Origin: Lentisphaerota bacterium
Lineage (GTDB): Bacteria; Verrucomicrobiota; Lentisphaeria; Victivallales; Victivallaceae
Assembly: GCA_015061805.1 (NCBI GenBank)
Contig: SUVV01000002.1
Coordinates: 62,001 to 126,000, forward strand
Direction of reading: 5' to 3'
DNA length: 64,000 nucleotides
Below are positions 3,009 to 46,494 of the stretch, in pieces. A program made the translations under genes and the position numbers. The notes under the pieces are model-generated. The model was not told the DNA's origin, searched no databases, and was given only the letters and a program-made list of their open reading frames with translations. Position 1 is the stretch's first letter. Each line of letters begins with the position of its first letter.

Positions 3009-4211
3009 ATGAAAGTTGTAGTTGCGTATTCCGGCGGTTTGGATACCTCGGTCATCGTCAAGTGGGTCAAAGAAACCTACAATGCTGAAGTCATCTGCTA
3101 TTGCGCCGACGTCGGTCAGGAAGAAGAACTCAACGGTCTCGAAGCCAAAGCCATCGCTACCGGTGCCAGCAAGTGCATCATCGATGACCTCAATGAAGAG
3201 TTCGCCCGCGATTTCATCTTCCCGATGCTTCAGGGCGGAGCCATCTACGAAAACAACTATCTGCTCGGTACCTCCATCGCCCGTCCGCTGATCGCCAAGC
3301 GCCTCGTCGAAGTCGCCAAGGCCGAAGGTGCCGATGCCATCTGCCACGGTGCCACCGGTAAAGGTAACGACCAGGTCCGTTTTGAACTCAACGCCGCCGC
3401 GATCGATCCCAAAATCAAAGTTATCGCCGCATGGCGCGATCCCAACTGGAAGTTCACCGGACGTATGGATATGATCGAATACGCCAAGGCCAACAACATC
3501 CCGGTCAGCGTTTCCGCCAAGAAACCCTACAGCATGGACCGCAATCTGCTCCACATCAGCTTCGAAGGCGGTATCCTGGAAGATCCCTGGCAGGAATTCC
3601 CCGAAGATATCGCTGTCATGACCGAACCCCTTTCCAAAGCCGCCGACACCGCCGAAGATGTGGTGCTCCACTTTGAAAAAGGTATCTGTACCGAAGTCAA
3701 CGGCGAAAAACTCTCCCCCGCCAACATCATGCGCAAACTTAACGCTATCGGTAAAAAACATGCCGTCGGCCGGGTCGACATCGTTGAAAACCGCTTCGTC
3801 GGTATGAAGTCCCGCGGTATCTATGAAACCCCCGCCGGAACCATCCTCACCGCCGCTCATCGCGGTCTGGAACAGATCACCCTCGACCGTGAAGTCATGC
3901 ACCTGCGCGACACCCTCATCCCGCGTTATGCCGACATGATCTACAATGGTTTCTGGTTCGCTCCGGAACGCGAAATGCTTCAGGCGATGATCACTGAAAG
4001 CCAGAAGTTCGTCACCGGTGATGTCCGGGTCAAACTCTTCAAGGGCGCCTGCCATGTCACCGGCCGCCGCAGTGAATACAGTCTGTATGACGACGAAATC
4101 GCCAGCTTTGAAGGTGCCGAAGCCTACGATCACAAGGATGCTTCCGGTTTCATCAACCTGAATGCTCTCCGCCTCAAAGTTCTCGCCCGCAGCAAACAGA
4201 ATCGCTACTGA
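3009..4211 (+). CDS. argG: Argininosuccinate synthase
   Basis: The enzyme condenses citrulline and aspartate with ATP in the penultimate step of arginine biosynthesis. The N-terminal ATP-pyrophosphatase motif AYSGGLDTS sits at residues 6-14. Further family signatures are [13 protein letters not shown], the AWRDP segment and [10 protein letters not shown]. At 400 residues it has normal full length. A strong GGAGG lies 6 nt before the ATG. Codon use is strongly biased to C-ending codons, as in the ribosomal protein genes here, suggesting high expression. It is followed after 20 bp by leuB, so the two are probably co-transcribed. Confidence 0.97.
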
Positions 4212-4231
4212 TTTCACGAGGAACATAGATC

Positions 4232-5338
4232 ATGAATAAGTACAATATCGCTGTTATTCCCGGCGACGGTACCGGTCCGGAAGTCGTCAATGAGGCGCTG
4301 AAGGTCTTGGATGCCGCCGGTAAAAAGTTCGGATTTGAACTGGATCGCAAAGAGTTCTGCTGGGGTGCCGACCACTATCTGGCAACCGGTGAAATCCTCC
4401 CCGATGATGCTTCCGATCAGCTTCGCAAGTACGATGCCTGTCTGCTCGGCGCCATCGGCAGCAACAAAGTCAAACCCGGAATCCTTGAAAAAGGTATTCT
4501 GCTCCGTTTGCGCTTTGAACTCGATCAGTACATCAACCTCCGCCCGGTCAAACTTTTCCCGGGCGTGGAAACTCCGCTTGCCAACAAGACCCCCGAAGAC
4601 ATCGACTATGTCGTCGTCCGTGAAAACTCCGGCGGTGTCTATACCGGCATGGGCGGCAGTGTCCAGCAGGATACTCCCGATGAAGTCGCCTGCCAGAACT
4701 GGGTCTACACCCGCAAACAGGTCGACCGCTGCTTGAAATATGCCTTTGAACTGGCTCTCAAGCGCCACACCAAAGAAAATCCGTGGAAAGGTCTTTCCGA
4801 TGAAGACAAAGCCGCCGGTTACACCGCTCAGCTTACCCTCGTCGGCAAAACCAACGTTCTGACCTACGTCTGCGGACTCTGGGAACGCGCTTTCAACGAA
4901 ATGGCAAAGCAGTATCCTACCGTCAAAACCGCCTATTGCCACGTTGATGCCACCACCATGTGGATGGTCAAAAACCCGGAATGGTTCGACGTCGTTGTCA
5001 CCGAAAACCTCATGGGCGATATCATTACCGACCTCGCGGCAATGACTGCCGGCGGTATGGGTATCTCCTCCGGCGGAAACATCAACCCCGAAGGGGTCAG
5101 CATGTTTGAACCCATCGGCGGTTCCGCTCCCAAATACACCGGTCTCAATGTCATCAACCCGATGGCGGCGATCGGTGCCGGTGCGATGATGCTGGATTAC
5201 CTCGGTGAAAAAGAGGCCGCCGCCGCGATCGAAAAGGCGATGGCTTTCGTCACCGGAAACAAACTCAAATCCATGGCAGCCGGTAAGATGGGCTACTCCA
5301 CTACCGAAGTCGGCGATCTGGTCGCCGCCGCGCTGTAA
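4232..5338 (+). CDS. leuB: 3-isopropylmalate dehydrogenase (isocitrate/isopropylmalate dehydrogenase family)
   Basis: This is an NAD-dependent decarboxylating dehydrogenase of 368 residues. The N-terminal IPGDGTGPE motif, the substrate segment [31 protein letters not shown], the HVDATTM region and the family signature [12 protein letters not shown] are all visible. The LLRLRFELD form resembles actinobacterial-type LeuB, which favours isopropylmalate over isocitrate. Tartrate or homoisocitrate dehydrogenase remain possible because no leuA/C/D genes are nearby. It follows argG closely and ends at a strong hairpin terminator. Confidence 0.85.
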
Positions 5339-7208: not shown

Positions 7209-8140
7209 AAAAAATTCTTATCATGGGCGCCAATGCCGCCCGCCAGAAAACTTTATATTTTGAAAAACTGCTGCCCGGTGAAGTCAACCGGGCGGTACAG
7301 ATGACCGAAATACCTTCCGGAAAAGGAATAAATTTCTGCCGGGCGCTCACCAACTGGGGACGGTGCTGCGGTGCAGTCATCCAATTCGCCGGCGGGGATA
7401 ACGGCCGGTTTCTGGTCGAATCTCTCCGGCAGGAGGGATTGGAAAATTATACCGTCAACTGTGTATCTCCCCTGCGCTGCTGCATGACCTGCATTGACCG
7501 AAGTACCGGAAGTGCCACCGAACTTATCGAACCCTCCGGCGCGGCAACTGCAGCTGAATGTGATGAGTTTGTCCGTTGTTTTGAAAAAAATATTGCCGAT
7601 GCTTCCGGAATCGCCATTTGCGGTTCTCTGCCGGACGGCACTTCCCCGGAATTGTATAACCGGGTGGCTCAAGCGGCGGTCTTGAATAAATTGCCGTTAC
7701 TCCTGGACTTTTATAAAAATGTTGAACCGTTGTTATCTCTTCCCGGTGTGACACTCAAGATCAACCGGGAGGAGTTGGGAAAACTTACCTCCTGCAGCAA
7801 TGTGCCGGAAGGGTTGAAAAAATTGTTTGCTTCCACCGGAATAAAACAGGCGGCGATAACCGATGGTGCCGGCAAGGCATATCTCGCCGGAGATGGAATT
7901 CTGGCAGTTTATTCCATCCCCGAATTGCCGCAGGTCGCCAATCCGATCGGATGCGGTGACAGTGCCAGCGCAGTTTTTTTCAGCGAATTGCTCAACGGGA
8001 ACGACCCGGTCGAAGCATTCCGGTTTGCGCTGGGGGCGGCGAGTGCCAATGCCGAAAGTTGGGTTCCTGCCGAGTTCGATCCAGCTCGCGGAAAAGAACT
8101 TGCCGCTAAGGTCAAAGTCGAATTGCATAAATTTGATTGA
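7205..8140 (+). CDS. PfkB-family sugar kinase (1-phosphofructokinase/tagatose-6-phosphate kinase type)
   Basis: A 311-residue carbohydrate kinase. The N-terminal PfkB signature SGKGINFCRAL is at residues 38-48. The C-terminal catalytic signature NPIGCGDSASA contains the predicted base D252; the usual GAGD is GCGD here. The arrangement, with a short N-terminus and GKGIN rather than GGKGAN, resembles the LacC/FruK subgroup acting on phosphorylated hexoses. The GTG start overlaps the dehydrogenase stop by 4 bp, so the two are translationally coupled and may share a pathway, but no transporter or regulator identifies the sugar. Confidence 0.88.
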   Translation: MKKILIMGANAARQKTLYFEKLLPGEVNRAVQMTEIPSGKGINFCRALTNWGRCCGAVIQFAGGDNGRFLVESLRQEGLENYTVNCVSPLRCCMTCIDRSTGSATELIEPSGAATAAECDEFVRCFEKNIADASGIAICGSLPDGTSPELYNRVAQAAVLNKLPLLLDFYKNVEPLLSLPGVTLKINREELGKLTSCSNVPEGLKKLFASTGIKQAAITDGAGKAYLAGDGILAVYSIPELPQVANPIGCGDSASAVFFSELLNGNDPVEAFRFALGAASANAESWVPAEFDPARGKELAAKVKVELHKFD

Positions 8141-8149
8141 TCTGTTGTT

Positions 8150-11100
8150 ATGAGTTATTTTGAAAAAAAATCCACATCCGGTGATCTTCCGGCGTTGAGC
8201 GGTATGAACTTTTACAGCACCATGAATCCGGTGCTGTGGTGCGGTATGACCGCTGTTGAATTGGAGCGCTGTCTGCCCGGGATGTTCCAGAGAAGCGCCG
8301 GATATACCCTGCTGGTCGCGGCATTTTTTGTGCTGCCGATGCTGGTCAATACCGGATTTGCTTCATATCTGATGGCGCGTTTCCCCTGCCGGAATATTCT
8401 TTCCTGTTCAAAGGTCGCGGAATTGCTGACCGCATTGCTGATGCTGGCACTCTATCCGGTGATGCCGCCGCTGGGCAGGCTGGTACTGCTGGCGCTTACC
8501 ACCATGCTGCTCGGTATCGAATATGCGATGTACCGTCCGGCATTGCGGGTCTTCATGGCATCGACTTTGCCTAAAAGTCAACTCAGTATCGGTTTCGGCA
8601 AGGTGCAGGGAGCCGCTCTGCTCGGTGCCGCAGGCGGTGTTTTGCTGGTGACTGCCGGGAATATTTTCCGGATACTGCCGGTTTGGAGCTGGATATTTTT
8701 TGCGTTGTGTTCAGTTCGCGGACTGGTGCTGGTCACCCGGATCCGGACGGCGGATGCGCTTCAGCCGCGGGCACGTTTTGCTCTGTTGCGCCGCTTCCGT
8801 CAGGTGCGCTGGGACAACCAGATACTGCGCCAGGAACTCCGGATCAGTGCATGGGGAGAAACCTATGTGATGGCATTGCTTATTTTCATCATCTCGCTGA
8901 CGGCGCAATATGCTTATGAGTACATGCCTTTTGAAAGCAATCCCCGTTACGGGATGATGGCGTTGATTCTGTTGATGATCGCTCCGCTTCTGGGTGGAGC
9001 TTTCGGTTGTATCAGCGCCGGAAAAATTTCCCGGGAAAGAGTCGAAATGGGACTTATTCCCGGAGCCGGTATGCTCTGCGTGGTGCTGTTGGCAGGGTTG
9101 GGATTTCTGACCTCATGGCGCGGCGGAGTTTACGAATATGCCGCTCTGGCGGCGGGATTGTTCTGTTTCGGAATCACGCTCGGAGCGCTGATGGTGCCGT
9201 TTCAGAGTTTTCAGGGATTTTTTGTCCGGCGGGAGATGCTGCCGGTGTTTTGTGTTCACTTCTACCGCAAATTCGGTATCGGTGTGTTGATCGGAATCAT
9301 TGTCACCGGAGTATCTTACAGTTACCGTCAGCCGGTGGCGACGGCGGCGTATGGACTTGCTCTGCTGACTTTCGGTTTGCTCTGTCTGATCTTCCGGATG
9401 GAACCGCATATACTGTTGCGTGCCGGTTCGCTGATACTGCTGCGGACACTCTACCGTCTGCATCTGGAAAATCCGGAAAATATTCCGGAAGAGGGCGGCG
9501 CTTTACTGGTCGCCAACCGTTCCAGTTTTGTCGATCTGCTCTTTGTTACCGGCGCGACCAGCCGTCCGGTGCGCTTTATGATGTCGGAGAACTTCAATCA
9601 ACCCGGCTGGCTCCGGGCGCTGTGCCGGACTGCCGGATTTCTGGAAGTTCCTGCCAATAAACCCAAGCAGCTCCGGCGGCTCTTTGAACAGACCCGCGAG
9701 ATGCTGCGCCGGGGCGAACTGGTCTGCGTTTTTCCGGAAAGCAACATCACCCGCAACGGCGTGATGTCCGGTTTGCGCGGCGGAGTGAAAGAGATGATCC
9801 CCGAAGATGAAGCGATCCCGGTCATTCCGGTACATATCGGTATGACGTGGGGAAGTATCTTTTCCCGTTATTATGGAAAATTCAAACTGCAATGGCCGGA
9901 AGAACTGCCGCATCCGGTCAGTATCACCGCCGGCGCTCCGGTTTCTCCGGCGACCTCTGCGTATGAGTTGCGGATAATCCTTTCCGAACTCGGTGCCGAT
10001 ACGAAAAACCGGATATTCCCCGGCGAACGTCCTTTTCATTCCCAGTTTGCCCAACTTGCCAGGCGCCACCCCAAGGGGAAGATCATCCGTGAACTGCGTG
10101 ATGGCAGGATCGTGGCATCACGCAACATCAATCTGCTCTGCCGCTGTATATTATTCAGCCGCTATTTGAGAAGAAAACGGCGGAGTTGTGAATATGTCGG
10201 CGTGATGCTGCCCAATTCCATCGCCTTCTTTCAAGCGATGACGGCGGTGATGATGGCAGACCGTGTCCCGGCGATCATCAACTACACTTCCAGTGAAGAA
10301 GCCCGCCGGAAAGCCATCGAAAATGCCGGTATCCAGACCATTATCACCAGCCGCGAATTGTTGGAAAAGTACGGTATCCCGCAAACCAGAGGAATGATCT
10401 TTATCGAAGATACCAACCGGATCACCCGTTCCAAATGGGTCGCGACCTGGTGGAAGTTCCTGATCATGATCCTGCCCAATGCCGAATTGATGAAACTGGT
10501 CGCTCCCGGCAGCTGGGATGATCCGCACCGGACGGCAGTGGTGCTCTTTTCCAGCGGTTCAACCGGAATTCCCAAAGGCATCATGCTCAGCCACCACAAT
10601 ATATTTTCCGACGTTCTGGCGGTCTCCCGGAGTATTGCCTGGAACCGCAAGGATCGGGTGCCGGGAAATCTGCCGCTGTTCCACTCTTTCGGTATGGCGG
10701 TCTGTCTGTGGATGCCGCTTTTTTCCGGCGGCGAAGTGACGATGCTGCCCAATCCGCTGGATGTTTCCGGCATGGCGCAGGTGTTGAAAGAACGGCATCC
10801 GACGGTGCTGTTTGCAACTCCCAGTTTTCTGCAGTTGTATATGCGTAAATGCAGCGGCGAAGAGTTCAAATCACTGCGTCTGGTGATCGCCGGTGCGGAA
10901 AAACTCCGCGACGATATCGTGGAGAAATTCCGGGAAATGACCGGGCTGGTCATCGCTGAAGCCTACGGATGTACCGAATTGTCGCCGGTCGTTTCCATCA
11001 ACCTTGCCAACTCCATCACCGATCTCGGCGTTGAAGTGGCACGCTACGGCAGTATCGGTCCATCTCTGCCGGGTATCTGCGCCCGGATCGTTGATCCATC

Positions 11101-39553: not shown

Positions 39554-40810
39554 TCACGCCAATATGAAACGTTGGCTGTTTTCCGAGAGTTCGGTGATGG
39601 CCCAGACGAGAGCATCCATGCGGTCGGGACTGTGGATAGAACTGCCGGGAGCGAAACTGATCATCTCTTCTTCGAGGAGTGGAAATTCTCCGACATGATG
39701 GACTTTCCCTTTTTCGTATAGAGCGGCGATCGGTTCGGCGCGGACGGTTTTCCCTCTGGAAGCGCGCACCGGATGGAAACTTACATCGGGATCGAATTTC
39801 CGTAAAAGGGCTTCGATGAGGTCGCCGCCGTTGTTGACTTCGCCGGTGACGCGGTCGGCGCCGAGACGGTGGTAAAGTGAAATCACCTGTTTTGCCCATT
39901 CGAGCGGGGTGCCGTGCATGGAGTCGTCAGCGATAACATAGTATTCGCCGTCGATGCCGGCGGCAGCGGCGACGATCCCGGTGTTGTCGCTTGAACTTCC
40001 GGAAGTCACGGCGGGATCGACACCGATAACGATGCGCTGGAATTCCGGAGGGTTGATGATGCGGGCGGAATCGATCATATCGCGTTTCCAGAGAGCGCCT
40101 TCGACCTCATCCAGAAATTTTCCTTCGAGGAAGCGTTCCCGTTGGCGGCGGGGGAGACCTGCGAGGGTATTTTCGATGTATCCCGGAGGAAGATTTACTG
40201 CATTATCCAGCGGATTGATCCGGATGGCGGCATAGTTGTCCGGATTTTTCAGCATCAGATGGTCGACCGGGTCATTTTTTTCGATGAAGACCCGGTAGGT
40301 CCAGTGTTTTTTACCGGGCGGGTTGCAGTCGAAAAAGGCTTTGGCGGTCAGTGGCGGAATATGTTGAGCGAGCCGGGTGAGAGCAATTTGAACGCTGGAA
40401 TAGTCAAGTTCGGAACATTCGTTGAAGTAAAGCGTTACGAATTCTTTGCCGAGGATTTTGTCCGCTTTGGCGTTGTCATCCAGACCGATCAGCCAGATTT
40501 CTGAACCATTCTCAAAAGCGAAAACGCCTTCGGTTTTGCGGTATTCATATCGGATGTCATCGTTAAACCGGTATTTCAGCACTTTAGGCAGGGTGTCGGC
40601 ACCGATGGAACTCCGTACTGCATTGGCATAACGGCGGATGATCGCGTGACGTGACCCGGGGGCCCGCAGGGCGCGGATGACCAGTACACAGCAGAGCAGA
40701 AAGGTTTTGCCGGAACGTGAGCCTCCGAAAAGCATAACGTTCCGGCATTCTCCGCTGATGAGCGTCAGCGCATCGAGTTGGGCGGGCGTATAGGAGAAAT
40801 CAGTTGGCAT
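39554..40810 (-). CDS. Phage terminase large subunit
   Basis: A 418-residue packaging ATPase/nuclease. Walker A is GGSRSGKT near residue 30, and Walker B with the catalytic Glu is VTLYFNECSE near 128. The C-terminal RNase H-like nuclease begins GVDPAVTSGSSSDNTG, with later acidic residues in DRMDALVWA. The ATG at 40810 lies 2 nt past the preceding stop; a TTG at 40816 overlapping that stop is an alternative. It is unusual that this gene is last in the head-gene series. Confidence 0.92.
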   Translation of the reverse strand: MPTDFSYTPAQLDALTLISGECRNVMLFGGSRSGKTFLLCCVLVIRALRAPGSRHAIIRRYANAVRSSIGADTLPKVLKYRFNDDIRYEYRKTEGVFAFENGSEIWLIGLDDNAKADKILGKEFVTLYFNECSELDYSSVQIALTRLAQHIPPLTAKAFFDCNPPGKKHWTYRVFIEKNDPVDHLMLKNPDNYAAIRINPLDNAVNLPPGYIENTLAGLPRRQRERFLEGKFLDEVEGALWKRDMIDSARIINPPEFQRIVIGVDPAVTSGSSSDNTGIVAAAAGIDGEYYVIADDSMHGTPLEWAKQVISLYHRLGADRVTGEVNNGGDLIEALLRKFDPDVSFHPVRASRGKTVRAEPIAALYEKGKVHHVGEFPLLEEEMISFAPGSSIHSPDRMDALVWAITELSENSQRFILA

Positions 40811-40812
40811 GG

Positions 40813-41328
40813 TCAATTTTCTGCGACAGCGTGTTCACTGCGGTACCGCATGAAGCGCTGACGTCCGCTGGAAAGTTTATACATGGTGCTTTTGAGCAGG
40901 GAGGTCAACTCCGGCCGGGCGGCGATGATATCCAGTATTTTGCGGTGCATCGCCTGACGGGAACAGCCGTGAAGTCTGCCCAGATGGGAAACGGTACATT
41001 TTCTGGTTCGGTCAGAGGGAGAGATCAATTCGCAGACGATGCCGGTGGTGTAGTCATCGAGTTCAAGCAGAAAACGGAAAAAACGTCCGAGCATGGGAAT
41101 CAGGGCGGCGGTATCGTTTTCATCCGGTTCACAGCCGGGGATATGTTCAAAATCGGCACAGTCGGGGAGCCAGCTCTGAATGGCTTCAAAACTGGTCAGA
41201 TGGGTACGGCTGTTGACGGTACTTTCAGTGGCGGCGTAATAGTTGCAGGAGTTGCGGTACCGGCATTTCCGGCAGCGCCCGGAATGGTGATCGGGTTTCC
41301 CGAAGCAGTCAAATTCTTCTTTTTTCAT
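40813..41328 (-). CDS. Cys-rich HTH protein of the phage cassette
   Basis: A 171-residue protein. The N-terminus has CFGKPDHHSGRCRKCRYRNSC, in two parts of fewer than 20 residues each, a likely zinc-binding cluster. The C-terminal part contains a helix-turn-helix (VSHLGRLHGCSRQAMHRKIL). Position between the connector and large terminase suggests a role in DNA recognition for packaging or in regulation. I do not recognise the family. Confidence 0.65.
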   Translation of the reverse strand: MKKEEFDCFGKPDHHSGRCRKCRYRNSCNYYAATESTVNSRTHLTSFEAIQSWLPDCADFEHIPGCEPDENDTAALIPMLGRFFRFLLELDDYTTGIVCELISPSDRTRKCTVSHLGRLHGCSRQAMHRKILDIIAARPELTSLLKSTMYKLSSGRQRFMRYRSEHAVAEN

Positions 41329-41355
41329 TGTATCACCTGAAAAATTTATGTTTGA

Positions 41356-41676
41356 TCAACCGCGGAGCAGAGGACAGACCGCCGGAGCAGGCGGCAGCCA
41401 CGCTTTGGCGCGGGGAGAAAGAACAAGTACCGTATCACTGCCGGTGCTGCCGGTTATAAGGTGAGGGTTGAGCAGGAGAAAGATCGCCTGTTCAAATACC
41501 GCATTGCGGAGGTTTACCGGCAGATTGTCCGGTAATTCCGGGATGCCGGCGGCAGCGGCGATGTCATTGGCGGCGGTACGGATCGCCGCGAGTTGTTTTT
41601 CTGCCGGAAATTTGGAAAAACTTTCATTGGAGAGATGTTCGGCGAAAAAGTCATGGGCTTCTTGCAATGTAAGCAT
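41356..41676 (-). CDS. Head-tail connector-like phage protein
   Basis: A 106-residue helical protein (LTLQEAHDFFAEHL, QLAAIRTAANDIAAAAGI, LRNAVFEQAIFLL). It resembles gp6-type head completion/adaptor proteins in length and pattern, and it directly follows the capsid gene, where adaptors normally lie. The assignment depends on position. Confidence 0.55.
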   Translation of the reverse strand: MLTLQEAHDFFAEHLSNESFSKFPAEKQLAAIRTAANDIAAAAGIPELPDNLPVNLRNAVFEQAIFLLLNPHLITGSTGSDTVLVLSPRAKAWLPPAPAVCPLLRG

Positions 41677-41750
41677 TGTAACAGGCTCCTTGATAAAGGT
41701 TTTTCCGGCAGGACGGGAGAATATCCTGCCGGAAAAGAACCGGTTTACGA

Positions 41751-42905
41751 TCAGGCGTTGCGCAGAGAGGCGATCGCTTCGGCGCTGGGCTGCAGGTTGG
41801 TCAGGCGGCAGCAGCGCTGGGCGACGTTGCGGAATTCAAAGGTGAGTTCTCCGATGGCGACGCGGCGGATACCGTCGAAACCTTTCGGGGTGGCATCGGT
41901 ATCGGTGATGGCGCGGCCGTTGAGATTGGAGAGCGCAAAGCACTGCGGGTCGAGGATCCAGGCATCGCAATCGGGCACATCCGGGTCCGCCATGATGGTC
42001 ATGCCGCGGCCGTTGATCTCGTTGACGATGACGGCGACATAGGCACCGCGGCGGTCATCGGAACGCAGGATCTGGATGCGGTCGCGGTATTCATTGGAGA
42101 TGACCCGAGCCTGACCGGGGGAACAGAGGATCTGCATGGGATCGCCGCCTTCAGCGAGTACTTTCTGGGCGGCATCGTTGATGGAAAAGCTGTCCAGACG
42201 GGTTTTGCCGGCATCGATGGAAAGGGAGTTTTCTCTGGTTCCGAAGAAGTAAAGACCGCCGGCTTCACCGTGGACACCGGGGGCGGGCTCCACACGGCGG
42301 CCGAAGAGCGCCACGCGGTTCAAATCGCGGGCAAGTTCAGAAAGAGCAAATGCGGTCTGGCGGTTGAGCTGATTGTCCGCACTGCCGTTGAGGGTGACGG
42401 CGAGGGCGCTTCCGGAGATGACGATCTCTTTACGGAAGATCTGGGTGGCGTTCCACTCCAGCTGACTGCATTTGAAAGTTTCATCGCCGTCACCGTTGGC
42501 GCTGCCTTCGGTCATCGGGGTCGAAACGATGATGAATTCTGTGTTTTCCGGCAGATCCGCGACACCGGAAGCCGCCGAACCGTTGGCGGCGGCAAATTCG
42601 ACCGTCAGAGTGTTGCCGCTGACGGCGGAAATCCGGTAGAGTGCCGGGTCTTCTTTGGCGGTAATGAGCATGCCGGGGAGGGCTTTTGCGGCATCGGAAG
42701 CGCTGACGGAAACGGTGTTGCCGTCAATGGCAATGGCATGAAAACCGCGGCCGGAAAGCTGATCTTCGACCCATTCGTGTTTGCGCTGGACGGCATCGCT
42801 GCCGGGGCGGAAGTTGGAGATGAAGCGCGGTTCATCTTTGATGACGGTTGACATGATGTCGGCGAGGTCGCGTTTGGCGTTGGCGAAACTGTAGGTGTAA
42901 AGCAT
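41751..42905 (-). CDS. Major capsid protein, SU10-like family
   Basis: A 384-residue protein. The N-terminal pattern DLADIMSTVIKDEPRFISNF with HEWVEDQLSGRG matches SU10/DUF5309-type HK97-fold major head proteins (usual form TPFLS ... KHEWQTD). The central RKEIVISGSALAV, ALSELARDLNRVALFGRR and C-terminal TFEFRNVAQRCCRLTNLQ also fit. It follows the scaffold gene. Confidence 0.85.
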   Translation of the reverse strand: MLYTYSFANAKRDLADIMSTVIKDEPRFISNFRPGSDAVQRKHEWVEDQLSGRGFHAIAIDGNTVSVSASDAAKALPGMLITAKEDPALYRISAVSGNTLTVEFAAANGSAASGVADLPENTEFIIVSTPMTEGSANGDGDETFKCSQLEWNATQIFRKEIVISGSALAVTLNGSADNQLNRQTAFALSELARDLNRVALFGRRVEPAPGVHGEAGGLYFFGTRENSLSIDAGKTRLDSFSINDAAQKVLAEGGDPMQILCSPGQARVISNEYRDRIQILRSDDRRGAYVAVIVNEINGRGMTIMADPDVPDCDAWILDPQCFALSNLNGRAITDTDATPKGFDGIRRVAIGELTFEFRNVAQRCCRLTNLQPSAEAIASLRNA

Positions 42906-42929
42906 CTGTTTTTCCTTTCTTGAAATGTT

Positions 42930-43379
42930 TTACAGATTTTCCGCATTGGCGGAGTTGAGGGAATCGATGATACGTCCGATACGGTCGTGATTGTTTTCGG
43001 AAGATTCTCCGGGCGCATTGACCGGAAGCGTTCTGGCGGCTCCGGGGGTGATGCGTGCCTGGAAGCATCCCGGCGAGGTGCGGGCGATATCGGAAGCAAA
43101 TTTCAATACTGCTTCACTGTCTTCGAGATCGAGATCGTGCTTGCGGGCGAGATAGTCGAAGTATCCCGGATCGGTACAGCCGGTTTCAGCGGCGATTTTT
43201 TCGATCCGGCAGCTGCGCTGGAGTTCGGTGTGGCGCTCCTGCAATGCGGAATATTCCTGTTGGAGTTCCTGCATTTCTCTGCCGGCTGCGTCGGGGTCGA
43301 AATTTTCCAGTTGGCTGCGTTCTTCGGGAGAGAGTTCTTCTCCGGCGAGGGAACGGTTGATCAACTCTTTGAGATTCAT
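42930..43379 (-). CDS. Scaffold-like phage head protein
   Basis: A 149-residue acidic protein. A central coiled coil (AAGREMQELQQEYSALQERH) and a Pro/Ser-rich tail fit phage scaffolding proteins of this size. It lies between portal and capsid genes. No protease motif is visible. It overlaps the portal gene end by 4 bp. Confidence 0.65.
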   Translation of the reverse strand: MNLKELINRSLAGEELSPEERSQLENFDPDAAGREMQELQQEYSALQERHTELQRSCRIEKIAAETGCTDPGYFDYLARKHDLDLEDSEAVLKFASDIARTSPGCFQARITPGAARTLPVNAPGESSENNHDRIGRIIDSLNSANAENL

Positions 43380-44758
43380 TGTTGTTTTTCCTGATTGATT
43401 TCGTTGAAGATTTTCTGTTTCTGTTTAATGCCGACAGGTTCGATGGCGTCGAGCAGTTCGGTTGCGGCGTAACCCACGGCCTGCCGGAACGAGTCACCCA
43501 TATTCAGCGATGCCAGCTGGATTATTCCGGAGATGGCGGCGTTGAGGTCGCGGACGGCGAATTTCCGGTTGTAGAGCACCTCCGGAACGGGGATATCGAG
43601 ATCGTAACGCTGCATGATCTTCCAGGCTTCGAGTTCCGATTGTTCGAGCAGATCGGCGCGGGAGGCGAGGAACTGGCTGGCATTCTGGAAGTCCCAGGAT
43701 TTTGATTCGGCGCTCTGATTGTTTCTTGAATTGCTCTGAAGCGCGAGGCCGACGATTTCAAAAAGTTCCCGTTTGAGGTGTTCATTTTCATTGCGGATGG
43801 TGGCGGTTTCCACTCCGGATGGGCTGATGAAACGGCTGATGCCCTTTTCATCCACGGCTTCGATGATGGCGGCGCTCCGGGCGACGGTCGCGGAAAAATT
43901 TTCGGTTTTGGAGCCGGACAGATTGAGTTTCTGGGCACCTCTGGCGAAACTTTCTGAAACGACCAGCATGCCGAACATCTGTTTGACCGTATTCATCTGG
44001 GCTTCGGATTCATTGTTGAGGATCGCTTCGCTGATGTTGACGACATCTTCAAACCAGTGACCGCCGCCGATGCCGAATCCGTCAGGTTCGGTGACGCCGA
44101 TCAGCGGGACGATGCCGGTCATATTGATTCCGGAATCGATTTCGCGTACGCCGGAATGAGTCTGTTCAAAAAGATGCCAGGTTTCCCGGGTGAAAAGGCG
44201 CCGTCGGCACAGTTTCACCGGAGGAGAAAACGGATCGCGGTTGAGCAGTTCCTCTTCGGTGCAGATCGCCCAGAGCAGTTTGCCGTCTTTACCGTATGCC
44301 CAGTCGGTCACTTGAAGCGGTGAAAGAGCCTTGACGTAAGGGCGGAGCCCCTCCCGGCGGGCGCGTTCGATGGATGGTTTGCCTTCAAAGTCCGGCATTT
44401 CAACAGCGAGCCATGCTCTGCCGTAGACATTGAGCAGAGTGGAGAGCTGGCGCATGACTTCATTGCAGCGCAGTCCGGATGAACTCCAGTCTTCGACCAT
44501 ATCTTCCCGTGCGCCGCGCCGGGCCGGTTCGATTGCCAGCACATACTGGGTGATTTTCTGGGCGATGGCGCGGGGGTAGTTGAAGTAGTAGGCGCGGCGG
44601 CGGCGTTCGGCGAATTCGATATCGATTTCTGAAACGTGGCGGATCAGTGCCTGATCGATATAATTTTTGCCGCCGCGATATGCGGAACTGGCATGTTTCC
44701 AGCGGGATTCGTTGGCGGAATATTCCGGGTGGCGGCGGTGAAAGATGTAGTTGCTCAT
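43376..44758 (-). CDS. Phage portal protein (DUF4055-like)
   Basis: A 460-residue protein. The N-terminal RRAYYFNYPRAIAQKITQYV and the long central stem segment (VVNISEAILNNESEAQMNTV) fit the DUF4055 portal family. C-terminal helices (SQFLASRADLLEQSELEAWK) are also typical. It forms the DNA entry vertex. It begins 30 bp after the small terminase gene. Confidence 0.78.
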   Translation of the reverse strand: MSNYIFHRRHPEYSANESRWKHASSAYRGGKNYIDQALIRHVSEIDIEFAERRRRAYYFNYPRAIAQKITQYVLAIEPARRGAREDMVEDWSSSGLRCNEVMRQLSTLLNVYGRAWLAVEMPDFEGKPSIERARREGLRPYVKALSPLQVTDWAYGKDGKLLWAICTEEELLNRDPFSPPVKLCRRRLFTRETWHLFEQTHSGVREIDSGINMTGIVPLIGVTEPDGFGIGGGHWFEDVVNISEAILNNESEAQMNTVKQMFGMLVVSESFARGAQKLNLSGSKTENFSATVARSAAIIEAVDEKGISRFISPSGVETATIRNENEHLKRELFEIVGLALQSNSRNNQSAESKSWDFQNASQFLASRADLLEQSELEAWKIMQRYDLDIPVPEVLYNRKFAVRDLNAAISGIIQLASLNMGDSFRQAVGYAATELLDAIEPVGIKQKQKIFNEINQEKQQ

Positions 44759-44787
44759 AGTATTCCTGAGGTTGTGGGATGGTGAAG

Positions 44788-45177
44788 TTAAAGTTTTGCT
44801 TCGATGGGATTCAGTTGGACGGTGATTTTATTTTTGTCGTTTTTCTTTTTTCCGGAGGTGTTTTTTTTCCAGCGTTTCGGCCGCCGGTTCTGAAGCCAGA
44901 AGAGAGCGGCGCGGACATCCGGAGCGATCTCTTTGCCGTTGCTGTCTTCGTAACCGGTGGCGCGTTTGAGCAGTGCCGCCTCCACCATGTCGTCGCAAAT
45001 GGAATTGCGCCGTTTGAAAAGTTCATCCAGTTCGGGATGTTGTTTCCGGTAGCGCCGCAAGGTGGACGGTGATACTCCGAGAAACCGGGTCGCCTCGGCG
45101 ATGCTGCTGCCGGAAGTGAGCATTCCGGCGAGTTCCGGCAGGCGTTCCCGGATATTTTCATAACCTTTGTTGTTCAT
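44788..45177 (-). CDS. Terminase small subunit-like HTH protein
   Basis: A 129-residue protein. An N-terminal helix-turn-helix (SIAEATRFLGVSPSTLRRYR) and the motif DDMVEAALLKRATGY ... APDVRAALFWLQNRRPKRW match phage small terminase subunits, which recognise the packaging site. The C-terminus is lysine-rich. The ATG at 45177 lies within the end of the preceding 68-residue gene. Confidence 0.8.
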   Translation of the reverse strand: MNNKGYENIRERLPELAGMLTSGSSIAEATRFLGVSPSTLRRYRKQHPELDELFKRRNSICDDMVEAALLKRATGYEDSNGKEIAPDVRAALFWLQNRRPKRWKKNTSGKKKNDKNKITVQLNPIEAKL

Positions 45178-45364
45178 TTTCCGGTTTGTTCTCCTGGGTT
45201 GCTGTGGTTTTGCAGCCATGCCCCGGATCGTCAACACGTTTTGCTGCGGGAAGAGTGATTTTCACCCGGTTCAGCACGGTGCACAGGCGCTTTATTCCGG
45301 AAAGTGAATAGATACTGCCGGAATTTGAGATCAACGGCAACTGGGGGAAGGTAACTTTTTTCAT
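45158..45364 (-). CDS. Small protein leading the phage head operon
   Basis: A 68-residue protein, MKKVTFPQLPLISNSGSIYS and onward, ending in a Lys/Glu/Asn/Gln-rich tail. I chose the ATG at 45364, which has AAGGAA 6 nt upstream; the ATG at 45370 would have no spacing to that site. It is the first gene after the operator region and overlaps the small terminase gene by 20 bp. Function unknown. Confidence 0.5.
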   Translation of the reverse strand: MKKVTFPQLPLISNSGSIYSLSGIKRLCTVLNRVKITLPAAKRVDDPGHGCKTTATQENKPENEQQRL

Positions 45365-45390
45365 ATTCATTTCCTTGTTTTGATAAGATA

Positions 45391-45406
45391 ATTGCATTCG
45401 TGCAAT
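45391..45406. promoter_or_regulatory. Palindromic operator O1 of the phage cassette
   Basis: ATTGCATTCGTGCAAT is a 6-bp inverted repeat with a 4-nt centre (TTGCA arms). It lies 27 bp before the leftward small gene. Confidence 0.7.
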
Positions 45407-45461
45407 AAAAAATTAATAATCAACTTTTCGTTATTTAAGTACTTTACGAAAATGCATTATA

Positions 45462-45477
45462 ATTGCATTGGTGCAAT
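45462..45477. promoter_or_regulatory. Palindromic operator O2 of the phage cassette
   Basis: ATTGCATTGGTGCAAT matches O1 except for one base in the centre. It lies midway between the divergent genes. Confidence 0.7.
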
Positions 45478-45523
45478 TATCAAGGGGTGGAAACGCTTTT
45501 TTTTGAAAAATATTTGCATTTTT

Positions 45524-45539
45524 CTTGCGCTTGTGCAAT
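45524..45539. promoter_or_regulatory. Palindromic operator O3 overlapping the repressor promoter
   Basis: CTTGCGCTTGTGCAAT has the same arms as O1 and O2 with one mismatch. It includes the -35 box of the rightward promoter. Confidence 0.68.
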
Positions 45540-45553
45540 AAACTGGCTATATT
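45525..45553 (+). promoter_or_regulatory. Predicted promoter of the repressor gene
   Basis: TTGCGC (45525-45530), 17 bp and TATATT (45548-45553). The -35 box lies inside operator O3, so bound repressor would shut off its own gene. Confidence 0.6.
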
Positions 45554-45621
45554 GTGAACTGATTAACAGTCGGCTTTAACATATTAATATACTAACGGCT
45601 GTATTGTCAAGGAGGAAAAAA

Positions 45622-46494
45622 GTGAAAATCGACGATGCACTCCGCATCCGGCTGGCAGAGGTGGTCGGACAGAATGGCGGTGTGAAAAAATTTGCCGCTT
45701 GCAGCGGGGTCGATGCTGCCAATATTTCCCGGTATCTCCGGGGGATTTCCCGCAGTATAAAAGATGACAACTGGGAGAAACTGGTTCCGTTTCTGGAAAA
45801 CAGCTGTAAAAAGATATCTGCCGGGCGCGGCACCTCCTTTATTGTTTCCAGTTGTGAATTGACCGAATTCATTACCGGCCGGATGAAACTTGCCCGGATA
45901 TCCAATGTGGAAAAATTGTGTCAGCGGATGAATTTCGACAGTTACGAAACGCTCCGCCGCCATATCAGCGGCAACCTCAACTGGCCGGTCGAAACTTTAT
46001 CCCGGGTGTTTGAAGTATTGTCGGTGGCTATTGAAGAAACTCCCCTTTCGGAAGCGGAGCGGCAATTGTTCGGCAGGAATGATGTTCCGGTTGACCGTGC
46101 CGGGACCTCGCGCACTCTCCCTGTGCTTTGCGGTATGGAAAACGGTGCGCTGGCAATGGATGGTTCGATCGCGGTCGCCGGCGGTACGCGGCGGGAACTC
46201 CGGGCGTTCCGGATATCCGGGGATGAGATGATGCCGCTGCTGCTGCCGGGGGATGTGGTCATTGCGGAAAAGGTCGGATCATTTGATGACATTCCGGACA
46301 ATGCGCTGGTGCTGGTCCGGTTGAATGATCAGGAGGATGCGCCGGAAGCGATGTTCTGCCGCCGTTTCCGCCGGATTAGCGGATGCCCTGCGGTCTTGAG
46401 CAGCGATGCTCCCGCCGGAGAATGGTTTACGGTTTCGGCTGAATCGGTTCAATGGTGCGGGGTAGTCCGGCGCCGAATCAGTGAATTTTTTTGA
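45622..46494 (+). CDS. Phage-type repressor with S24-like C-terminal domain lacking the catalytic Ser
   Basis: A 290-residue regulator. An N-terminal helix-turn-helix (VKKFAACSGVDAANISRYLR) is near residues 15-35, and a second possible HTH (NVEKLCQRMNFDSYETLRRH) is near 96-115. The last 110 residues have the LexA/CI S24 fold pattern SGDEMMPLLLPGDVVIAEK. The usual catalytic Ser of GDSM is Glu (E202), and no clear catalytic Lys follows. Self-cleavage is therefore unlikely. The GTG start follows AGGAGG by 6 nt. It is divergent from the head genes across three operators. Confidence 0.85.
   Translation: MKIDDALRIRLAEVVGQNGGVKKFAACSGVDAANISRYLRGISRSIKDDNWEKLVPFLENSCKKISAGRGTSFIVSSCELTEFITGRMKLARISNVEKLCQRMNFDSYETLRRHISGNLNWPVETLSRVFEVLSVAIEETPLSEAERQLFGRNDVPVDRAGTSRTLPVLCGMENGALAMDGSIAVAGGTRRELRAFRISGDEMMPLLLPGDVVIAEKVGSFDDIPDNALVLVRLNDQEDAPEAMFCRRFRRISGCPAVLSSDAPAGEWFTVSAESVQWCGVVRRRISEFF

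Follow-up and report, generated by a model that had tools for sequence, protein, structure and literature searches.

A vertically inherited head-and-packaging cassette of tailed-phage origin in Victivallaceae as a candidate part of a gene transfer agent-like particle

Capsid-forming satellites of the cf-PICI type carry their own head and packaging genes and a divergent regulator but no lysis genes; they borrow tails, and they also carry integrase and replication genes. Among gene transfer agents (GTAs), RcGTA has its head genes in one main cluster. One account (PMC12946183) describes GTAs as host-kept structural genes of tailed phages that extend over several operons, and places the well-studied examples mostly in the Alphaproteobacteria. 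Among the matches listed by our literature search, which covered few subscription papers and preprints, there was no report of a GTA from the Lentisphaerota. We suggest, with somewhat better than even confidence, that a cassette in the window (the whole 64-kb stretch of DNA analysed here) is the head-and-packaging part of a GTA-like particle, domesticated from tailed phages and with its parts at several loci.

The preliminary description of this locus as an intact head-and-packaging cassette is confirmed, in that every named frame is open, the regulator on the plus strand and the other genes on the minus strand (Table 1). Pfam or PHROG matches likewise bear out the identities given to the large terminase (TerL), the capsid, the portal, the small terminase (TerS) and the S24 regulator, while the scaffold is matched weakly and the connector and the Cys-rich HTH protein fall in no family. 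The window genome has one Terminase_6N match, and the GGSRSGK motif of TerL, together with D265, E324, D396 and D399, which we take to be its catalytic acidic residues, is invariant in 21 aligned sequences. The adaptor-like protein belongs to the same cluster as the ORFs lying 3' of the capsid gene in the loci of the genus, in the dispersed loci and in phage L056. Phage L056 also has the Cys/HTH gene, whose product conserves Cys in 28, 26, 29 and 29 of 29 sequences at the four columns, with a spacing that is presumably similar to that of WhiB proteins; its predicted model (mean pLDDT 79, pTM 0.47) matched nothing in the PDB at E ≤ 0.001, the best, weak matches being sigma-factor chains. The ORF caller gave TerS the span 44788-45177, and its conserved start is probably near 45177. 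The leader ORF has a motif that reads, by eye in ORF translations of nine relatives, approximately (D)PLISxxGxIYSxxGLxRL.

Table 1. Genes and operator-like sites of the cassette, in window positions.
Feature	Position	Strand	Basis or remark
Large terminase (TerL)	39554..40816	-	PF03237, PF17289, phrog_979 (E 5.8e-69); last gene of the operon
Cys-rich HTH-like protein	40813..41328	-	C-X10-C-X2-C-X5-C, then helices; no family match
Adaptor/connector-like protein	41356..41676	-	Named by position; no family match
Major capsid protein, SU10 type	41751..42905	-	PF17236 SU10_MCP (E 1.2e-44)
Scaffold-like protein	42930..43379	-	Weak PF06810 (E 0.048); position and conservation
Portal protein	43376..44758	-	phrog_145 (E 2.7e-38)
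Small terminase (TerS)	44788..45237	-	phrog_309 (E 1e-25)
Small leader ORF	45158..45397	-	Overlaps TerS start; precedes small terminase
Operator-like palindrome TTGCA-N4-TGCAA, site 1	45392..45405	not applicable	
Operator-like palindrome TTGCA-N4-TGCAA, site 2	45463..45476	not applicable	
S24/LexA-type regulator	45604..46494	+	PF00717 (Peptidase_S24, E 3.4e-5); divergent from the operon

The cassette is core to its genus, vertically inherited and under purifying selection. The portal gene is present in 30 of the 34 genomes of the genus, including all 14 good ones, and the capsid gene also in 30 of 34, as compared with 28 of 34 for rpoB. Gene order is kept in 28/28 related loci compared, with all seven genes called in 24 of them; G022, in which the cassette is split across contigs C57 and C26, stands outside all synteny counts. 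The cassette tree has 14 of 18 splits in common with the rpoB tree (based on the 21 of 29 cassette genomes in which rpoB was matched in full), and the single-gene trees of TerL and capsid agree with rpoB more poorly (Mantel r 0.62 and 0.65; 0/2000). Pairwise dN/dS lies between 0.03 and 0.37 in 69 comparisons, and for TerL between 0.04 and 0.12 in nine pairs, in some of which dS is saturated or nearly so. A dN/dS below 1 across the head genes, for which the preliminary description had proposed a test, is observed. The capsid frame is broken in G006. Locus L054, with a broken capsid frame, was excluded from set A1 and entered the comparison with rpoB through its best piece alone; L043 was excluded from set A2, and L030, L040 and L049 from set A3 (short calls). 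The earlier suggestion was of a DNA-packaging head module that had been domesticated; the domestication is supported by core presence, vertical descent, dN/dS below 1 and invariant terminase motifs, while the packaging is something that we infer.

The placement of the large terminase last, next to the Cys/HTH gene, had been thought atypical, but the same order, TerS-portal-scaffold-capsid-...-Cys/HTH-TerL, is found in the Lentisphaerota phages L056 (IMGVR_UViG_2786546706_000002) and G083:C10/L179/L279. Identity between L056 and the window is 59-64% over portal, capsid and TerL (portal 59%, TerL 64%). These phages have in cis closure-like, Neck1-type (phrog_5) and tail-tube genes, and also a large protein, MuF/ADP-ribosyltransferase-like by eye, that is absent from the cassette. 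In the portal tree the Lentisphaerota phages are sister to the cassettes. A single domestication uniting the cassette with the dispersed portals of sister genera, to the exclusion of the phages, is rejected by this tree (p-AU 1.5e-5, for groups set beforehand by gene content and a test picked after the tree was seen). The dispersed portals do not form one clade in the best tree, although the constraint that they do so is not rejected (p 0.067). We note that phages re-emerged from domesticated genes would yield the same portal tree.

The existence of such phages lends itself to two other readings. The cassette might be a remnant prophage caught before decay and common because the phage is common, as the closeness of L056 and the presence of the phage at G083:C10 would allow; yet all 28 loci are reduced to one gene set and order, they are congruent with rpoB, their dN/dS is well below 1, and the window has neither the broken frames nor the relaxed selection of a decaying prophage (exceptions, outside the window, are the capsids of G006 and of G068, the latter of another genus), so that we consider this reading highly improbable. 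It could also be a defence or interference module whose head parts sabotage the assembly of related phages, in favour of which are the occurrence of related phages (L056 and L179) within the family and the 59-64% identity of the window's parts to those of L056. Such a module would have no obvious need of TerS, TerL and portal jointly under strong selection, nor of the distal tail-tube genes described below, and we regard it as very unlikely.

The preliminary description had recorded no lysis, integrase or replication gene with the cassette, and its flanks within the window agree, holding no recognised gene of these kinds. When ten flanking proteins were compared with Pfam (E ≤ 0.001), five matched nothing and five matched T2SSC (weakly), a MoxR-type AAA family, DUF58/VWA, VWA/BatA and DUF1559 with N_methyl; none of the ten belonged to a phage family or was an integrase, and no integrase was found by Pfam or PHROG among the cassette proteins. 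In relatives, the two nearest ORFs of at least 100 aa on each side of 28 loci, some sides being cut by contig ends, gave 95 ORFs, mostly of housekeeping families among the matches listed. The single Phage_integrase match among those listed is in G016 (L049:3222-4526), two genes from the cassette and separated from TerL by a dehydrogenase gene; it is missing from the vicinity of the cassette in G002, the sister genome. Chromosomal neighbourhoods are common to the members of a subclade and differ between subclades, and the cassette occupies the same site in opposite orientations in the window and G018, and in G008/G004/G029 and G015. In the other genomes f7 did not turn up in the 1.5 kb preceding MoxR, and no empty site was found.

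These data bear on the idea, also put forward in the preliminary description, of a stripped satellite, that is, a cf-PICI-like element from which the integrase and replication genes have disappeared and which relies on borrowed tails. The compact cassette with its divergent regulator and operator, the neighbourhoods that vary between subclades, the flipped orientation and the integrase-family gene of G016 would all suit such an element. Against it, the cassette tree tracks rpoB, prevalence is similar to that of rpoB, members of a subclade have common neighbourhoods, the integrase is a single one of 95 nearest flank ORFs, and sister genera have the genes at scattered positions. Because descent is vertical and the flanking proteins scanned in the window include no integrase, we reject the satellite reading and give it very little probability.

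The absence of tail genes claimed for the cassette is true of the locus but not of the genus, since 26 of the 34 genomes have a tail-tube gene elsewhere, its fold matching that of one chain in 6tba, a GTA virion, and about half of the genus has a small head-closure-like gene at other loci. The preliminary description had held that tail genes elsewhere nearby in the genome would refute its reading, and a tail gene elsewhere is present in those 26 genomes; in the window's own genome, as in its three nearest relatives (G018, G003 and G031), the tail-tube and closure profiles found nothing. The last of these searches, over eight genomes, matched 0/8, which is uninformative unless a positive control is at hand. 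As the tail-tube profile reached three relatives at E 2e-4 to 2e-6 only, its silence in the window subclade may reflect limited sensitivity; the particle of that subclade may hence be tailless, or may use parts too diverged to detect. Tape measure, baseplate, lysis and protease genes were not identified in the genus, and the tape-measure candidates of the related phages matched no such Pfam family. The ORF that comes next to the tail-tube gene on its 3' side, c35 (a cluster of four, with six matched by its profile), was suspected by eye to be a tail chaperone, without support.

Elsewhere in the family dispersal extends to the head genes, which lie one to three together in Victivallis and other genera. 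Portal and capsid are more than 1 Mb apart or on separate contigs in 23 of 26 genomes; most genomes are draft MAGs, so that different contigs are no proof of distance, but in G065 the two genes lie 1.29 Mb apart on one contig, which is. For five genera (g26, g29, g3, g33 and g37) the searches with portal, capsid, TerL, closure and tail tube were all negative. The capsid gene at the dispersed locus of Victivallis vadensis DSM 14823 (G068) looks truncated, with the C-terminal part alone, and neither the rest of the capsid nor a scaffold was found in the 1.8 kb up to the contig end. The parts are also carried by the cultured strain zth2, which has a complete genome and for which the shedding of hexagonal particles has been reported.

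Two TTGCA-N4-TGCAA palindromes, the only ones in the window, lie between the operon and its regulator. Across 21 of 28 relatives there are 39 such sites near the TerS start and none elsewhere in the 444,042 bp of those loci; L036 has sites and no called regulator, L044 a regulator and no site, and the sequences of L038 and L043 stop short of the operator region. The motif is upstream of distal tail-tube or closure genes in 0/35 loci, some with little upstream sequence, and co-regulation of these genes through the same operator is accordingly unsupported. The Ser and Lys of the regulator are both present in 14 of 22 aligned sequences, Ser alone is missing in four, and both are missing in another four, namely the proteins of the window and of the three relatives closest to it. 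Without these self-cleavage residues, induction by RecA-type self-cleavage is unlikely in the window subclade. Their loss, the lack of a detected tail tube and the continued selection on packaging genes could together indicate that, at least in this subclade, the domesticated capsid serves a purpose other than transfer, for instance as a tailless container that is filled with or sequesters DNA. Given that close relatives retain the tail-tube gene and that its absence here may reflect the reach of the profile, we deem this rather unlikely.

In the GTA-like reading that we prefer, the S24-type regulator would bind the palindromes and silence the operon until a signal allowed its expression. Head assembly by capsid and scaffold would then start from the portal, and TerS and TerL would fill the head with any chromosomal DNA they encountered; packaging at random is suggested because, where the parts are scattered, one headful could not hold them all. 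Adaptor, closure protein and tail tube would complete the particle, which would deliver host DNA to kin. More tentatively, and with rather less than even confidence, we posit that on two or more occasions the Victivallaceae turned related tailed phages, by domestication, into GTA-like particles, as a compact cassette with a distal tail gene in the window genus and as dispersed head genes in Victivallis and others, that this is the first such Lentisphaerota system known to us, and that one subclade drifted to a tailless form free of self-cleavage control. A candidate GTA of the Lentisphaerota with genes both clustered and scattered would show the dismantling of a phage by its host; strain zth2 is a carrier in which packaging can be tested, and its hexagonal particles would gain another candidate explanation.

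The cassette resembles cf-PICI elements in having its own capsid, portal and terminase and a divergent regulator without lysis genes. It differs from them in that no integrase or replication genes are recognised beside it, in its vertical descent, its core presence and the scattering of its genes in sister genera, and its congruence with rpoB is not that of a horizontally mobile element. From RcGTA it differs in its SU10-type capsid, in its phylum, in a tail that is so far incomplete, in being known here from genes alone and in that, in sister genera, even the head genes are scattered. Several features expected of GTAs are nonetheless present, including homology to tailed phages, vertical inheritance, purifying selection and structural genes unaccompanied by integration or replication genes (among the flanking proteins scanned in the window and the nearest ORFs of the 28 loci, G016 excepted). 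Spacing too wide for packaging as one element is seen in sister genera (G065) and, within the genus, between cassette and tail tube in most genomes, with no tail tube detected in the window's own; as for the tail, tail-tube and closure-like genes are found, and tape measure and baseplate are not identified. Like the RcGTA-type GTAs of the Alphaproteobacteria, this system, viewed across the genus and its sister genera, consists of tailed-phage structural genes that are kept by the host at multiple loci, with a tail-tube fold similar to that of the 6tba chain.

In the window, the cassette genes are tightly packed, with overlaps or short gaps between them (see the table). The contig, C14, is part of a draft genome of 2.29 Mb that is 91% complete and contains one Terminase_6N match. 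Five of ten flank proteins scanned against Pfam match a family (MoxR-type AAA, DUF58/VWA, VWA/BatA, DUF1559 and, weakly, T2SSC) and none matches a phage family, in agreement with the preliminary description of an intact, compact cassette without tail, lysis, integrase or replication genes. A leader ORF ahead of TerS is the first operon gene, and its motif is seen in nine relatives. Between the f7 gene and the TerL end, a stretch of about 55 bases (TGCTGACTTGGCACTTTGGGGTGGGAGG...) is present twice.

Coordinates of features in the window and in compared genomes (G), contigs (C) and fetched loci (L)
Feature	Location	Position	Strand or size	Remark
Cassette	window	45.4 to 39.6 kb	minus	small leader ORF, TerS, portal, scaffold, capsid, adaptor-like, Cys/HTH, TerL in this order
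S24-type regulator	window			divergent from the cassette operon
Leader ORF	window	45158-45397		
Repeated stretch	window	about 39.10-39.32 kb		two copies
Integrase-family protein	L049 (G016)	3222-4526	434 aa	two genes off the cassette; sole one among 95 scanned flank ORFs
Dispersed head genes	G065 (5 contigs, 99% complete)	capsid 0.57, portal 1.86, TerL 2.24 Mb		single contig
V. vadensis capsid	L329 (G068:C31)	7915-8271		
Protein family c16	L191, L192, L193, L200, L202		311-503 aa	beside TerL in five genomes outside the genus
Protein directly 3' of tail-tube gene	L255	6613-7632	256-406 aa (all four)	one subclade (all four)
Same	L256	5143-6006		
Same	L258	6729-7499		
Same	L260	7277-8497		

A capsid search of 60 genomes gave 34 positives, 30 of them among the 34 genomes of the genus and four among the 26 outside it. 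The preliminary description had proposed synteny and presence across relatives as a check. Gene order is kept in all 28 related genus loci compared, and 30 of the 34 genomes of the genus have the portal, including 14 of 14 good ones, the corresponding figures for an rpoB domain used as a yardstick being 28 of 34 and 14 of 14. All seven genes were called in 24 of the 28 loci, the other four being one gene short through a contig end (L038, L043) or a miss by the simple ORF caller (L044, L049). Neighbourhoods are common within subclades and different from one subclade to another. The orientation of the cassette is reversed, with the neighbours unchanged, at two sites, in the window versus L022 (G018) and in L031 (G015) versus L026, L029 and L030 (G008/G004/G029), and no recombinase was seen there in the scanned neighbours. 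Apart from the integrase-family protein in the table, the flanking ORFs closest to the cassette in the 28 loci (95 in all) belong, among the matches listed, to non-phage families or are unmatched. Within the genus, G022 also bears, apart from its cassette, another capsid (62-64% identical) and a TerL of 47% identity on contig C46 (L050), and in G016 a tandemly repeated sequence directly follows the closure-like gene (L205, downstream of 5508).

A tree of TerL, portal and capsid was compared with an rpoB tree in the 21 genomes having both markers. The two agree in 14 of 18 splits, and their Mantel r of 0.872 was reached by none of 2000 permutations; taken singly, the portal scores r 0.869 with 13 splits, the capsid 0.648 with 13, and TerL 0.621 with 11. 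For MoxR plus its neighbour, a chromosomal marker compared in 16 genomes, 10 of 13 splits agree with rpoB and 12 of 13 with the cassette. In one conflict (G010/G017/G033) both sides have some support, 77 versus 93. Pairwise dN/dS, which the preliminary description had proposed to test, lies below 1, at 0.03 to 0.37 in 69 comparisons (nine pairs, eight genes, dS saturated in some), and is lowest for TerL. Vertical descent with slow rearrangement accounts for these results better than mobility does.

Two copies of the palindrome TTGCA-N4-TGCAA lie between regulator and operon, and the 64-kb window has no other. In relatives, 39 such sites lie near the TerS start in 21 of 28 loci, with none in the remaining 444,042 bp; as the motif came from these very regions, the test is the contrast with other DNA rather than motif discovery. 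Two of the seven loci without it end before the region, and L034, L037 and L054 lack both regulator and palindrome; exceptions to the pairing are L036 (sites, regulator not called) and L044 (regulator, no site). None of 35 distal genes has the palindrome upstream. Both residues of the S24 Ser/Lys pair are present in 14 of the 22 regulators aligned; four lack Ser alone, and the four of the window's subclade lack both.

Named records are Lentisphaerota, and Victivallaceae wherever a family is stated. Many come from herbivore guts, and two cultured strains are among them, Victivallis vadensis DSM 14823 (L296) and strain zth2 (CP071032.1, L292). Across the phylum (387 genomes searched), 57 genomes match the portal profile and 51 the capsid profile. 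This sample includes 35 genomes from other genera of the family: the portal is present in 27, and 26 of these also have a capsid match, the two lying more than 1 Mb apart or on different contigs of these drafts in 23 and 9 to 12 kb apart in three (G083, G184, G289). G181 has its capsid match split over two contigs. A phage-like cis arrangement of capsid and portal is additionally found in G083 and G323, and in G174 and G314 one contig bears portal, TerL, the small closure-like gene c67 and the tail tube. In these other genera, c67 adjoins the portal in nine of ten fetched portal neighbourhoods (by clustering), and scaffold, capsid and adaptor stand together in all seven intact capsid neighbourhoods fetched with them and in L041. 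TerL there stands alone, with TerS (G184, G034) or adjoining portal and c67 (G408); it is present in 66 of 78 family genomes (fragments included). By eye, the neighbours in L041 and L050-L053 look housekeeping-like. In V. vadensis, the C-terminal part alone of the capsid is recognisable, beside an adaptor gene. The one c16 member scanned had no family match, and c16 is possibly a further particle part. The protein following the tail-tube gene matches no known family; a profile made from it picks up L261 and L259 as well.

In a quick-search portal tree with SH-aLRT support, the cassettes make up a single clade (95) whose neighbours are phages L056 and L279 (joint group 99), and the dispersed portals have phages L055 and L057 among them (80 for that group). 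A grouping of cassette and dispersed portals to the exclusion of phages was rejected (p-AU 1.5e-5). Either related phages were domesticated twice, or phages re-emerged out of domesticated genes.

One report (PMC11361711) gives filamentous, hexagonal and icosahedral particles for zth2 grown with polysaccharides and hexagonal ones under 100 nm for the related strain WC36; it concludes chronic release for the filamentous particles, states that no hexagonal one was observed leaving the cell, and describes the assembled phage genomes as extrachromosomal. The hexagonal particles of zth2 may be either this extrachromosomal phage or the product of the chromosomal system. TerL is the most constrained gene, followed by portal and capsid, a pattern that speaks for the filling of heads with DNA as the function under selection. 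DNA transfer by such particles is an inference: where the genes are scattered, no headful can carry the full set, and this is the reasoning commonly used to propose a gene transfer agent.
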